From Halorubrum sp. DM2 (GTDB taxonomy: Archaea > Halobacteriota > Halobacteria > Halobacteriales > Haloferacaceae), in assembly GCF_901686465.1 (NCBI RefSeq), contig NZ_LR594487.1, positions 2,865,773-2,929,772 of the forward strand: 64,000 bases of DNA, in the 5' to 3' direction. Position 1 is the first letter of the stretch; each line of letters begins with the position of its first letter. Of the stretch, positions 13,231 through 16,640 are shown one piece after another. A program made the position numbers and the translations under genes. The notes under the pieces are model-generated. The model was not told the DNA's origin, did no database searches, and saw only the letters and a program-made list of their open reading frames with translations.

Positions 13231-14452
13231 ATGACAGACATCACGGAGGCTTCGTCGGACACCCCGGCGGATCGAGTTCTTCCAGGGCACGATAGCTTCT
13301 AACGTCGAAATCGGTCCTGTCAGGATCTTCGACACGACCCTGCGAGACGGAGAACAGTCACCACGTACTTCGTTCAGCTACGACGAGAAACGCCGCATAG
13401 CGGCGACGCTGGACGACATGAACACCCACGTCATCGAGGCGGGGTTCCCGGTCAACTCGGATGCGGAGTTCGAGGCCGTCAGCGACATCGCCGCCGCGAC
13501 GGACACCACCGTCTGCGGGCTGGCCCGCGTCGTCGACGGCGACATCGAGGCCGCCATCGACTCCGGCGTCGAAATGGTCCACGTGTTCGTCTCCACCAGC
13601 GACGTTCAGCTGGAGGATTCGATGCACGCGACCCGCGAGGAGGCGAAAGGGCGCGCGGTCGACGCCGTCGAGCAGGTCAAAGACGCCGGCGTCGAGTGTA
13701 TGTTCTCGCCGATGGACGCGACCCGGACGGACCCGGACTACCTGATCGACATCGTCGAGGCGGTCAGCGACGCGGGCACCGACTGGATCAACATTCCCGA
13801 CACCTGCGGCGTCGGGATGCCGACCAGCTTCGGGCAGACCGTGGAGGCCGTCGTCGAGGCGACAGACGCCCGCGTCGACGTCCACACCCACGACGACTTC
13901 GGGATGGCCGCGGCCAACGCCGTCATGGGCTTCGAGAACGGCGCGGAGCAGGCGCAGGTGTCGGTCAACGGGATCGGCGAGCGCGCCGGCAACGCCGCCT
14001 ACGAGGAGGTCGTGATGGCCGTCGAGTCGGTGTACGGCGTCGACACCGGCATCGACACGACCCAGATCACCAAGCTGGCACGGATCGTCGAGGAGGCCTC
14101 GGACATCCCGGTGCCGGCGAACAAGCCCGTCACCGGACGGAACGCGTTCGCCCACGAGTCGGGCATCCACGCCGCCGGCGTCATCGAGAACAGCGACACG
14201 TTCGAGACCGGCGTGATGACCCCGGAGATGGTCGGGGCCGAACGCGAGTTCGTGCTGGGCAAACACACCGGCACCCACAGCGTGCGCAAGCACCTGGTGG
14301 AGGCCGGCTTCGACCCGACGGACGGCGAGGTCCGGAAGATTACGAAGCGGGTCAAGGAGTACGGTGCCGGCAAGCGGCGGGTGACGGCCGGCGACGTCGA
14401 GCGGTTCGCCGAGGAGGCGGACGTGACGCGCGAGGAGGAGGTCCGGGTCTGA
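13231..14452 (+). pseudogene. leuA: 2-Isopropylmalate / citramalate synthase with an apparent frameshift near the start
   Basis: First enzyme of the leucine branch: acetyl-CoA condenses with 2-oxoisovalerate (or pyruvate in the citramalate version). Reading from the promoter-proximal ATG gives MTDITEASSDTPADRV and then a stop at 13302. The next frame, open from 13235, gives EFFQGTIASN, then RIFDTTLRDGEQ (catalytic Arg and metal-binding Asp), the HTHDD metal-binding motif near 13885 and an intact barrel to the TGA at 14452. That second frame has no ATG, GTG or TTG before 13418, which lies past the active-site motif. So a shift between about 13270 and 13280 is needed to make a working enzyme. 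The protein ends without the C-terminal leucine-binding regulatory domain, as in other short archaeal versions. It heads the branched-chain cluster. Sequencing error, real mutation and recoding are all possible. Confidence 0.85.
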
Positions 14453-14533
14453 TGGCCGCCTCCTCGACCGGAGCGCCCTCCGAGCGACCGCGAGGGCAGT
14501 CGCCTACGGGGTCGGTTCGCGCTCCCCGACAGG

Positions 14534-14541
14534 AATTTATA
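14534..14541 (+). promoter_or_regulatory. Promoter for the ilvB leader transcript
   Basis: AATTTATA followed by CCCC, the best TATA match in the gap. Its centre is about 28-29 bases before the ATG at 14567, the spacing expected when transcription starts at that ATG. It would give ilvBNC-leuCDB a promoter separate from that of leuA, with a 5' leader of about 250 bases. Confidence 0.6.
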
Positions 14542-14566
14542 CCCCGGCCGCGTTGCTCCGAGCGAG

Positions 14567-14641
14567 ATGCGACGGCACACCACGGTCGCGGAGCGAGCGG
14601 ACGTTCCCGCAGCCGTCGCGCCGATCATCGTAGGGGTCTGA
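14567..14641 (+). CDS. Putative 24-residue leader peptide upstream of ilvB
   Basis: Reads MRRHTTVAERADVPAAVAPI then IVGV and a TGA. The last 12 residues hold five branched-chain residues (three Val, two Ile), two of the end products of the pathway downstream. The ATG sits where a leaderless transcript from the 14534-14541 box would begin. The stop codon falls inside a hairpin (14630-14649). It is too short for reliable gene calling, and the Val/Ile content could arise by chance in GC-rich DNA. What is seen is the ORF, its promoter spacing and the hairpin; a role in attenuation is inference. Confidence 0.35.
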   Translation: MRRHTTVAERADVPAAVAPIIVGV

Positions 14642-14649
14642 CCCCCTAC
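14630..14649 (+). promoter_or_regulatory. Hairpin overlapping the leader-peptide stop codon
   Basis: GTAGGGG (14630-14636) pairs with CCCCTAC (14643-14649) around TCTGAC. The inner bases GGGGTC-T-GACCCC also form a 13-base dyad (14633-14645), so the site could instead be a protein operator on DNA. A ribosome stopped at the TGA (14639-14641), or stalled on the preceding Ile-Val codons, would keep the stem from forming. Confidence 0.5.
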
Positions 14650-14816
14650 ACCATCCCTTCCTCACCGACGCGACGCACCGCCGAACGCCGGCGGCCGGGC
14701 CGTTTCCGACGCACGCAGCCGCGCTCCCGACAGACGCGGCGTGACCCCGTCCGTCCCGCGTTCGCAGCGACCGACGCGACAACCCGCCAGATGCCACACC
14801 GAACACCACCACGACA

Positions 14817-16640
14817 ATGAGCGATACAGCAGCACAGCCGCGATCCGACGGAGACGAGTCGGACGGTTCGTCCGCCGACGCGACCGGCGAGGCCGCGGCC
14901 GACGACCCGACCGACCCGGACGACGAACAGCCCGCGGGACCCGTCTCGACCGGCGCTGAATCGGTCGTCGCCGCCCTCGAAGCCGCGGGCGCGAAGACCG
15001 CCTTCGGCGTTCAGGGCGGGGCGATCATGCCCGTCTACGACGCCCTGTACGACTCGTCGATCCGGCACGTGACGATGGCCCACGAGCAGGGTGCGGCCCA
15101 CGCCGCCGACGCGTACGGCGTCGTCGCCGGCGAGCCCGGACTCTGTATGGCCACCTCCGGTCCGGGCGCGACGAACCTCGTCACCGGTATCGCCGACGCC
15201 GACATGGACTCGGACGCAATGTTAGCGCTGACCGGGCAGGTCCCCACGGAGTTCGTCGGCAACGACGCGTTCCAGGAGACGGACACGGTCGGCGTCACCC
15301 GACCGATCACCAAGCACAACTACTTCGCCGGCGGGGCCGACACCGTCGGCGACACCGTCGGCGAGGCGTTCGAGCTGTCGCGGGCCGGCCGCCCCGGTCC
15401 GACGCTCGTCGACCTCCCGAAGGACGTGACGCAGGACGAGACCGACCGGACGCCCGGCCCGGCGACGCCGCCCGCGGGGACCGACCCCGACCCGAACGCG
15501 GACGCCGACGCGGTCGAGGCGGCCGCGCGCGCCATCGAATCGGCCGAGCGCCCCGTCTGCCTGTTCGGCGGCGGCGTCATCAAGGGCGACGCGAGCGACG
15601 AGGCCCGGACGTTCGCCCGTAGCTACGGGATCCCGGTGACGACGACGATGCCGGGCATCGGATCGTTCCCCGAGGACGACGACCTCTGTCTCTCGTGGGC
15701 GGGGATGCACGGCACCGGCTACGCGAACCTCGCGATCACCCACACCGACTGCCTGATCGCGGTCGGGACGCGGTTCGACGACCGGCTCACCGGCGGGATC
15801 GACACGTTCGCGCCCGAGGCCGAGGTGATCCACGTCGACATCGACCCCGCTGAGATCTCGAAGAACGTCTACGCCGACTACCCGCTGATCGGCGACGCCG
15901 GGCGCGTCTTGGACCAGCTGACCGCCGCGGTCCGCGAGGCCCCCGACGCCGAGGCGTGGCGCGAGCGGTGCGCGGAGTGGAAGGAGACGTACCCGCTCAC
16001 GTACGCGACCCCCGACGACGAGCCGCTGAAGCCGCAGTTCGTCGTCGAGGCGTTCGACGAGGCGACGGACGACGACACCATCGTCACCACGGGCGTCGGC
16101 CAACACCAGATGTGGGCCTCGCAGTTCTGGTCGTACTCGGAGCCGCGGACGTGGGTCTCCTCGCACGGACTCGGCACGATGGGCTACGGCGTGCCCGCCG
16201 CGGTCGGCGCGCGCGTCGCGGCCGACACGATGGGCGAAGAGGACCGCGACGTGGTGTGTTTCGACGGCGACGGCTCCTTTTTGATGACGATGCAGGAGCT
16301 GTCGGTCGCGGTCCGCGAGGAGTTGGACATCACGGTCGCCGTGCTCAACAACGAGTACATCGGGATGGTCCGACAGTGGCAGGACGCGTTCTACGAGGGA
16401 CGCCACATGGCCTCGGAGTACAGCTGGATGCCCGAGTTCGACAAGCTGGCCGAGGCGTTCGGCGCGCTCGGGCTGCGCGTCGACGACTACGACGAGGTCG
16501 CCCCCGCCGTCGAGGAGGCGCTCGACTACGACGGGCCGGCCGTGATCGACTTCCATGTCGACCCCGAGGAGAACGTCCTGCCGATGGTGCCGAGCGGCGG
16601 TGCGAACGGCAAGTTCGCGGCCGTGGAGGACCAGCTATGA
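14817..16640 (+). CDS. ilvB: Acetolactate synthase large (catalytic) subunit
   Basis: 607 residues. Thiamine-diphosphate enzyme that joins two pyruvates, or pyruvate and 2-oxobutyrate, in valine/leucine and isoleucine synthesis. An acidic 40-residue tail precedes the PYR domain with the catalytic Glu in AHEQGAAHAADAYG (about 84). The central domain has IAVGTRFDDRLTGG. The ThDP motif GDGSFLMTMQEL...VAVLNNEYIGM (about 483-516) has the GDG and NN metal/ThDP residues. Full length. Its stop overlaps the ilvN start (ATGA), so the two subunits are translationally coupled. ATG start at 14817, well downstream of the leader promoter. Confidence 0.96.
   Translation: MSDTAAQPRSDGDESDGSSADATGEAAADDPTDPDDEQPAGPVSTGAESVVAALEAAGAKTAFGVQGGAIMPVYDALYDSSIRHVTMAHEQGAAHAADAYGVVAGEPGLCMATSGPGATNLVTGIADADMDSDAMLALTGQVPTEFVGNDAFQETDTVGVTRPITKHNYFAGGADTVGDTVGEAFELSRAGRPGPTLVDLPKDVTQDETDRTPGPATPPAGTDPDPNADADAVEAAARAIESAERPVCLFGGGVIKGDASDEARTFARSYGIPVTTTMPGIGSFPEDDDLCLSWAGMHGTGYANLAITHTDCLIAVGTRFDDRLTGGIDTFAPEAEVIHVDIDPAEISKNVYADYPLIGDAGRVLDQLTAAVREAPDAEAWRERCAEWKETYPLTYATPDDEPLKPQFVVEAFDEATDDDTIVTTGVGQHQMWASQFWSYSEPRTWVSSHGLGTMGYGVPAAVGARVAADTMGEEDRDVVCFDGDGSFLMTMQELSVAVREELDITVAVLNNEYIGMVRQWQDAFYEGRHMASEYSWMPEFDKLAEAFGALGLRVDDYDEVAPAVEEALDYDGPAVIDFHVDPEENVLPMVPSGGANGKFAAVEDQL

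Follow-up and report, generated by a model that had tools for sequence, protein, structure and literature searches.

Leader-peptide attenuation requires a ribosome that travels close behind RNA polymerase. In the Escherichia coli leaders ivbL, ahead of ilvB, and ilvL, ahead of ilvGMEDA, the peptide is rich in the regulated amino acids and the position of the ribosome sets the hairpin, the control codons being many and clustered and the terminator carrying a U-run. In leaders of the tnaC type the stop codon lies beside a C-rich, G-poor tract typical of factor-dependent terminators; to our knowledge, Rho is absent from archaea. The attenuator of the Corynebacterium glutamicum ilvBNC operon encodes the leader peptide MTIIRLVVVTARRLP (PMC11857589, PMC10272879) and has a conserved GUA codon (PMC11857589). 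For Archaea, the literature searched, with most subscription journals outside its scope, gave no earlier description of such a leader, in agreement with the statement in a sequence-only reading of the present locus that no such archaeal system was known, and neither ilv genes nor uORFs are mentioned in a Ribo-seq paper (PMC12482152). The product of ilvB1, as annotated in Haloferax volcanii, is needed for valine, leucine and isoleucine (PMC4300041). Here we describe the region between leuA and ilvB in a 64-kb stretch of haloarchaeal DNA (the window) and compare it with these systems.

Leader ORF upstream of ilvB and its conservation

The source genome is Halorubrum-like and the nearest named relatives of its ilvB are from Halorubrum. 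The features of the locus are collected in Table 1. The ATG of the short upstream ORF (uORF) is located 31 nt downstream of the first T of TTTATA, a spacing from which a leaderless start is inferred. The sequence-only reading had listed a strong TATA element, a 24-codon ORF at leaderless spacing, a peptide ending in Pro-Ile-Ile-Val-Gly-Val and a 7-bp hairpin overlapping the TGA; every one of these was read in the window as claimed, with the TGA (14639-14641) in the hairpin loop, while the bridge ORF, the class-wide conservation and the rare-codon signature reported below had escaped it.

Table 1. Features of the leuA-ilvB region, in window coordinates.
Feature	Coordinates	Strand	Details
leuA, upstream neighbour	13231..14452	+	out-of-frame ATG at 13231; conserved +1 site 13274-13290 before the conserved N-terminus
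Bridge ORF	14452..14820	+	122 codons + stop; -1 frame relative to the uORF
TATA box TTTATA, putative internal promoter	14536..14541	+	inside the bridge ORF; read directly
Leader peptide uORF	14567..14641	+	24 codons + stop, presumed leaderless; MRRHTTVAERADVPAAVAPIIVGV*
Putative control codons Ile-Ile-Val (ATC ATC GTA)	14624..14632	+	from conservation and codon rarity
Stop-codon hairpin	14630..14649	+	GTAGGGG (14630-14636), loop TCTGAC (14637-14642), CCCCTAC (14643-14649)
G-poor C/T/A tract, candidate premature termination site	14642..14666	+	pyrimidine run 14654-14663
ilvB, acetolactate synthase large subunit	14817..16640	+	first gene of ilvBNC-leuCDB, presumed regulated

Within the genus, the leuA-ilvB gaps from 50 genomes all contained the TATA box, the uORF and the stop-codon hairpin. 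The TATA-to-ATG spacing was exactly 31 nt, the uORF was 23-24 codons long and its end was Ile-Val-Gly-Val/Ala followed by the stop in 50/50 loci, while the middle of the peptide varied freely and the identity of the stop differed by species (TGA, TAA or TAG). One locus (L038) has an additional, closer ATG and retains the ATG at +31. The class-wide sample comprised 164 leuA-ilvB gaps from the named loci and from loci of other families of Halobacteria, and in 160 of them an Ile, Leu or Val codon followed by GTA-GGG stood near the end of an upstream ORF, with a stop and a C-rich arm behind it and GTAGGGG kept as Val-Gly codons. Across the class the uORF length ranged from 16 to 71 codons, the stop followed the Gly codon by 1-2 codons in 154/160 loci (full range 1 to 6), and an AT-rich element was found ~27-34 nt upstream of the uORF start. 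The elements CGAAA and TTATTA of some Haloferax loci match the haloarchaeal BRE/TATA consensus (PMC4983044), and the leaders of Haloferax and others terminate in Leu-Ile-Ile-Val-Gly-Ala.

As the motif itself had served as the anchor of this comparison, a frame-neutral test was run in which no frame was preselected, the best AT-rich heptamer upstream was taken and an ATG was sought 27-35 nt below it. Such a TATA-spaced ATG was present in 123/160 loci and opened the Ile-Val-Gly frame in 123/123; after redundancy reduction the count was 60/60, where one third was expected. The conservation of ORF and stem among relatives, on which the sequence-only reading had made its proposal depend, thus held both in the genus and in the class.

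The four gaps without GTAGGGG fall into two pairs. L148 and L153, from one genus, have an altered hairpin, GGGCC..GGCCC, placed before the stop, and a uORF with an Ile-Arg-Val ending. In L169 and L170, divergent relatives with ilvB 57-58% identical and no leader, the genes adjoin or overlap, so that there is no space for a leader; one junction (L169) is an ATGA overlap and the other arrangement is a 7-nt spacing. This pair suggests that leader and promoter were inserted later into such an arrangement, coupling perhaps being kept. Another variant was seen in six Natrialbaceae loci (L117, L123, L124, L183, L185 and L187), where the uORF traverses the entire hairpin (GGGGC..GCCCC) and reaches its stop codon shortly beyond it, after a few more codons (IVGAPTPR*, IVGASSPH*).

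A strict form of the motif (ATT, GGGGC) was searched over 295 genomes of the phylum and gave 30 matches, at most one per genome. The 25 matches in Halobacteria were all between leuA and ilvB, and the five outside the class were unrelated and not at leuA-ilvB. The count is too low, as the strict form excludes Halorubrum; in the window's own genome, the remaining matches to the loose motif lay outside leuA-ilvB. Searches with Rfam covariance models returned no relevant leader or riboswitch family, the sole match being S4-Bacteroidia on the opposite strand (E 1.8, below the gathering score), which we take as chance.

Codons, hairpin and downstream tract

The codons at the end of the uORF are conserved beyond the residues that they encode. 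The residue preceding Val was Ile in 158/160 leaders (Val in one, Leu in one), and the Val codon was GTA in 160/160. GTA accounts for 2/283 Val codons (0.7%) and ATT for 4/91 Ile codons (4.4%) in seven neighbouring genes, and ATT served as the leader Ile codon in 61/89 representatives. These figures remove the concern, raised in the sequence-only reading, that the Val/Ile content had arisen by chance. The third positions of GTA and GGG were invariant and residues -2 and -3 highly variable; as GTA was unchanged also in 61 loci where it was not completely base-paired, hairpin pairing alone does not explain its conservation. The leader is a short upstream ORF conserved in frame before a biosynthetic operon, with codons for the end products near its end (Ile, Val or Leu in 160/160, with the rare GTA), as in attenuators, and the pattern of GTA and ATT usage is the appearance expected of control codons.

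The hairpin begins directly at or after these codons, a geometry by which its formation would depend on the position of the ribosome. In 126/160 loci its CCCC begins 3-4 nt past the first stop-codon base. The mean energy of the local hairpin was -12.7 kcal/mol against -6.2 kcal/mol with the 3' part shuffled, the probability that the GGGG arm pairs downstream was 0.97 against 0.73 in shuffles, and the inner pair covaried between C-G and T-A (Fisher 3e-4, either pair). A 4-bp match alone carries little weight because the tail is C-rich, 98% of the shuffles also being able to pair GGGG across 4 bp.

Class-wide, G made up 3-7% of positions +1 to +20 past the uORF stop and T reached 43% at +16 to +20, compared with a T content of 14.5% for the window. 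For H. volcanii, stretches of T with TC behind them have been mapped as sites of intergenic termination, and a hairpin assayed there stopped 59% of transcripts (PMC7237163); the T-rich, G-poor tract, read with these signals, makes premature termination plausible. A scan for bacterial promoters and terminators found neither in bacterial form, and no conserved alternative (antiterminator) partner was recognised by eye or in single folds. FttA/aCPSF1 favours U-rich RNA (PMC11616081), and a role for it at this leader would be speculation.

Further downstream, T falls to 5-12% class-wide beyond ~+45 past the uORF stop, and a CGTTTTC-like element ~40 nt past the stop is common to many families. Besides, window positions 14676-14731 have a 79% identical counterpart of 55 nt at another place in the genome (L002, G000:C1:2455743-2455797).

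Bridge ORF and the start of leuA

A second ORF, in another frame, spans the whole regulatory region, its start lying within the leuA stop (TGATG) and its stop within the ilvB start (ATGA). Both overlaps were present in 50/50 genus loci and an NTGA in 86/89 representatives, which is the stop/start overlap of translationally coupled gene pairs. The gap lengths of the genus all fell in the same class modulo 3 (50/50) despite a range of 308 to 506 nt, and a single frame was open across the 50 gaps, with 1 stop where ~72 were expected. Among the 86 diverse NTGA representatives the bridge was open from leuA to ilvB in 66 (13 expected); its part ahead of the uORF was open in 79 representatives (40 expected). 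The phase between uORF and ilvB was constant in 50/50 genus loci and in 73/89 representatives, with another phase in 16/89. Antisense ORFs in the gap were interrupted by stops in every relative.

As pN/pS was ~0.9-1.2 in every frame and region of the gap, it is the openness that appears to be under selection and not a protein product. In H. volcanii, a gap of ~20 nt nearly abolishes reinitiation (PMC10666635), and an ORF laid across the regulatory region would thus be a way to maintain coupling. Most likely the bridge ORF keeps the translation of leuA and ilvB coupled.

The start of leuA itself is unusual. No in-frame start codon is present at the conserved N-terminus VRIFDTTLRDGEQ; an ORF from an out-of-frame ATG, MTDITEASSDTPADRVLPGHDSF*, lies at 13231-13302 of the window and overlaps an invariant GAGTTCTTC(C/G)A(C/G)GGCAC in 76/78 loci of the class-wide comparison of leuA starts (loci in L062-L141). 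A programmed +1 frameshift at GTT CTT C, with CTT as the Leu codon, is a candidate for joining this ORF to LeuA. Pfeiffer and Dyall-Smith flagged the start anomaly of HVO_1510 in H. volcanii and speculated on control by leucine (PMC8305020); no published report of class-wide conservation of the +1 site was found in the literature searched.

Proposed mechanism, alternatives and known systems

We consider it probable that the locus encodes a leader through which ribosomes sense branched-chain amino acids and which acts by premature termination of transcription. The internal promoter would give an mRNA starting at or beside the uORF ATG, and a ribosome would follow RNA polymerase while translating the short leader. 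With ample Ile-tRNA and Val-tRNA the ribosome would clear the rare ATT/ATC and GTA codons, terminate and depart, after which the GTAGGGG/CCCC(TAC) hairpin could fold and transcription would stop early in the G-poor pyrimidine tract. Under shortage of Ile or Val the ribosome would stall at the control codons; with one of these in its A site, the ribosome would reach over the GGGG arm with its leading edge and block the hairpin, so that RNA polymerase would continue into ilvBNC-leuCDB and expression would rise. On the long transcripts that begin at the leuA promoter, ribosomes that have finished leuA would reinitiate at TGATG, translate the bridge through the hairpin and reinitiate again at the ilvB ATGA, preserving the coupling of leuA and ilvB.

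The sequence-only reading had compared the layout to translational attenuation or ribosome stalling. The conservation in genus and class supports an attenuation or stalling layout, and the part of that claim that fares badly is translational attenuation by reinitiation at ilvB: reinitiation there from the uORF was rejected, as the uORF stop lies 77-345 nt from ilvB, far beyond the distance tolerated in Haloferax (PMC10666635). Some observations count against attenuation by termination as well. Neither an antiterminator structure nor a classical terminator was recognised, in the few Natrialbaceae with the stop past the hairpin the ribosome would cross the whole structure before terminating, and HVO_1508 is absent from the uORFs in the 2016 H. 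volcanii table of transcription start sites, as far as its main text goes.

The main rival keeps the same leader and sensor codons and places the output in ilvB translation or mRNA stability, as when a stalled ribosome shields the 5' end or alters folding near the distant ilvB start. We regard it as unlikely on balance: the lack of a convincing terminator favours it, as does the position of the first ribosome on a leaderless mRNA, at the very 5' end where protection is plausible, while the distance just given is excessive for reinitiation, the uORF-ilvB spacing varies among loci and no conserved partner for the hairpin arms was seen on inspection at the ilvB start. Arrest by the nascent peptide, in which the (I)IVGA end would stall the ribosome at the stop in response to a metabolite as in TnaC, is improbable. 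The final residues are indeed the sole conserved part of the peptide, but conservation at the level of codons, seen in the third positions of GTA and GGG, together with the variable residues -2 and -3 is unlike arrest peptides, and the number of codons before the stop is not fixed. Very doubtful, too, is a programmed -1 frameshift at the uORF end under starvation, stimulated by the hairpin and leading into the bridge frame and on to the ilvB ATGA. The constant uORF-ilvB phase would fit it, and the neighbouring leuA appears to require a +1 shift; ATT ATT GTA GGG however contains no -1 slippery heptamer, 16/89 loci are in a different phase, and openness of the bridge upstream of the uORF would be superfluous.

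That either ORF, or both, codes for a functional small protein is highly improbable, and the candidate was rejected for either ORF: both frames are open across great divergence, yet pN/pS stays near 1 in every frame and the lengths vary widely. Least probable of all is a DNA operator, with the palindrome bound by a regulator and the ORF incidental. The arms are palindromic, in part through the complete CCCCTAC, but the loop ranges from 1 to 18 nt across loci, which favours RNA over a DNA operator, and the 5' arm is far more conserved than the 3' arm. Moreover, the strict motif is single-copy in a genome and confined to this locus, and an operator would not need the conserved uORF frame.

Among these readings, termination governed by ribosome position remains the one we prefer. 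A broader reading, which we hold with somewhat more reserve and still consider rather likely, is that Halobacteria possess a class-wide ribosome-mediated attenuator of branched-chain amino acid synthesis, independent of its bacterial counterparts, in which a leaderless uORF carrying rare Ile-Val codons and a single hairpin across the stop are nested in an ORF that serves coupling and bypass. If so, the bridge ORF would exist solely for leuA-ilvB translational coupling and for bypass of the attenuator on long transcripts, and would be a natural ORF selected for translatability rather than for its product. If the start of leuA is counted as well, the operon may hold two separate translation-based amino-acid sensors. 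The element is conserved and single-copy in the genetically tractable model Haloferax, which makes it directly testable.

Of the described systems, the C. glutamicum ilvBNC attenuator offers a close match, with a short ORF ~200 nt before the same operon, a leaderless-type start, branched-chain codons that include the conserved rare GUA control codon, and GGGC/GCCC pairing in its hairpin. That attenuator is bacterial and built on overlapping terminator and antiterminator hairpins, whereas the haloarchaeal leader has one stop-spanning hairpin and a second ORF that bridges leuA and ilvB in another frame. Because an antiterminator and a bacterial-type terminator were not recognised, we keep the leader outside the bacterial attenuator families; the resemblance to leader-peptide attenuation in bacteria is probably functional, nothing in the comparison pointing to homology or common descent. 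With E. coli ivbL and ilvL it shares a leader containing the regulated amino acids and, as proposed here, a ribosome-dependent hairpin, and differs in that its control codons number 2-4 and sit right at the hairpin and stop. As in tnaC, the uORF stop adjoins a C-rich, G-poor tract; unlike tnaC, the codons and not the peptide appear to be conserved. The ends of the bridge resemble the termination-reinitiation pairs of H. volcanii (PMC10666635), with the 1-nt TGATG and the 4-nt ATGA overlap, and in contrast to those coupled genes the bridge is free of amino-acid constraint and apparently just carries ribosomes across the regulatory region.
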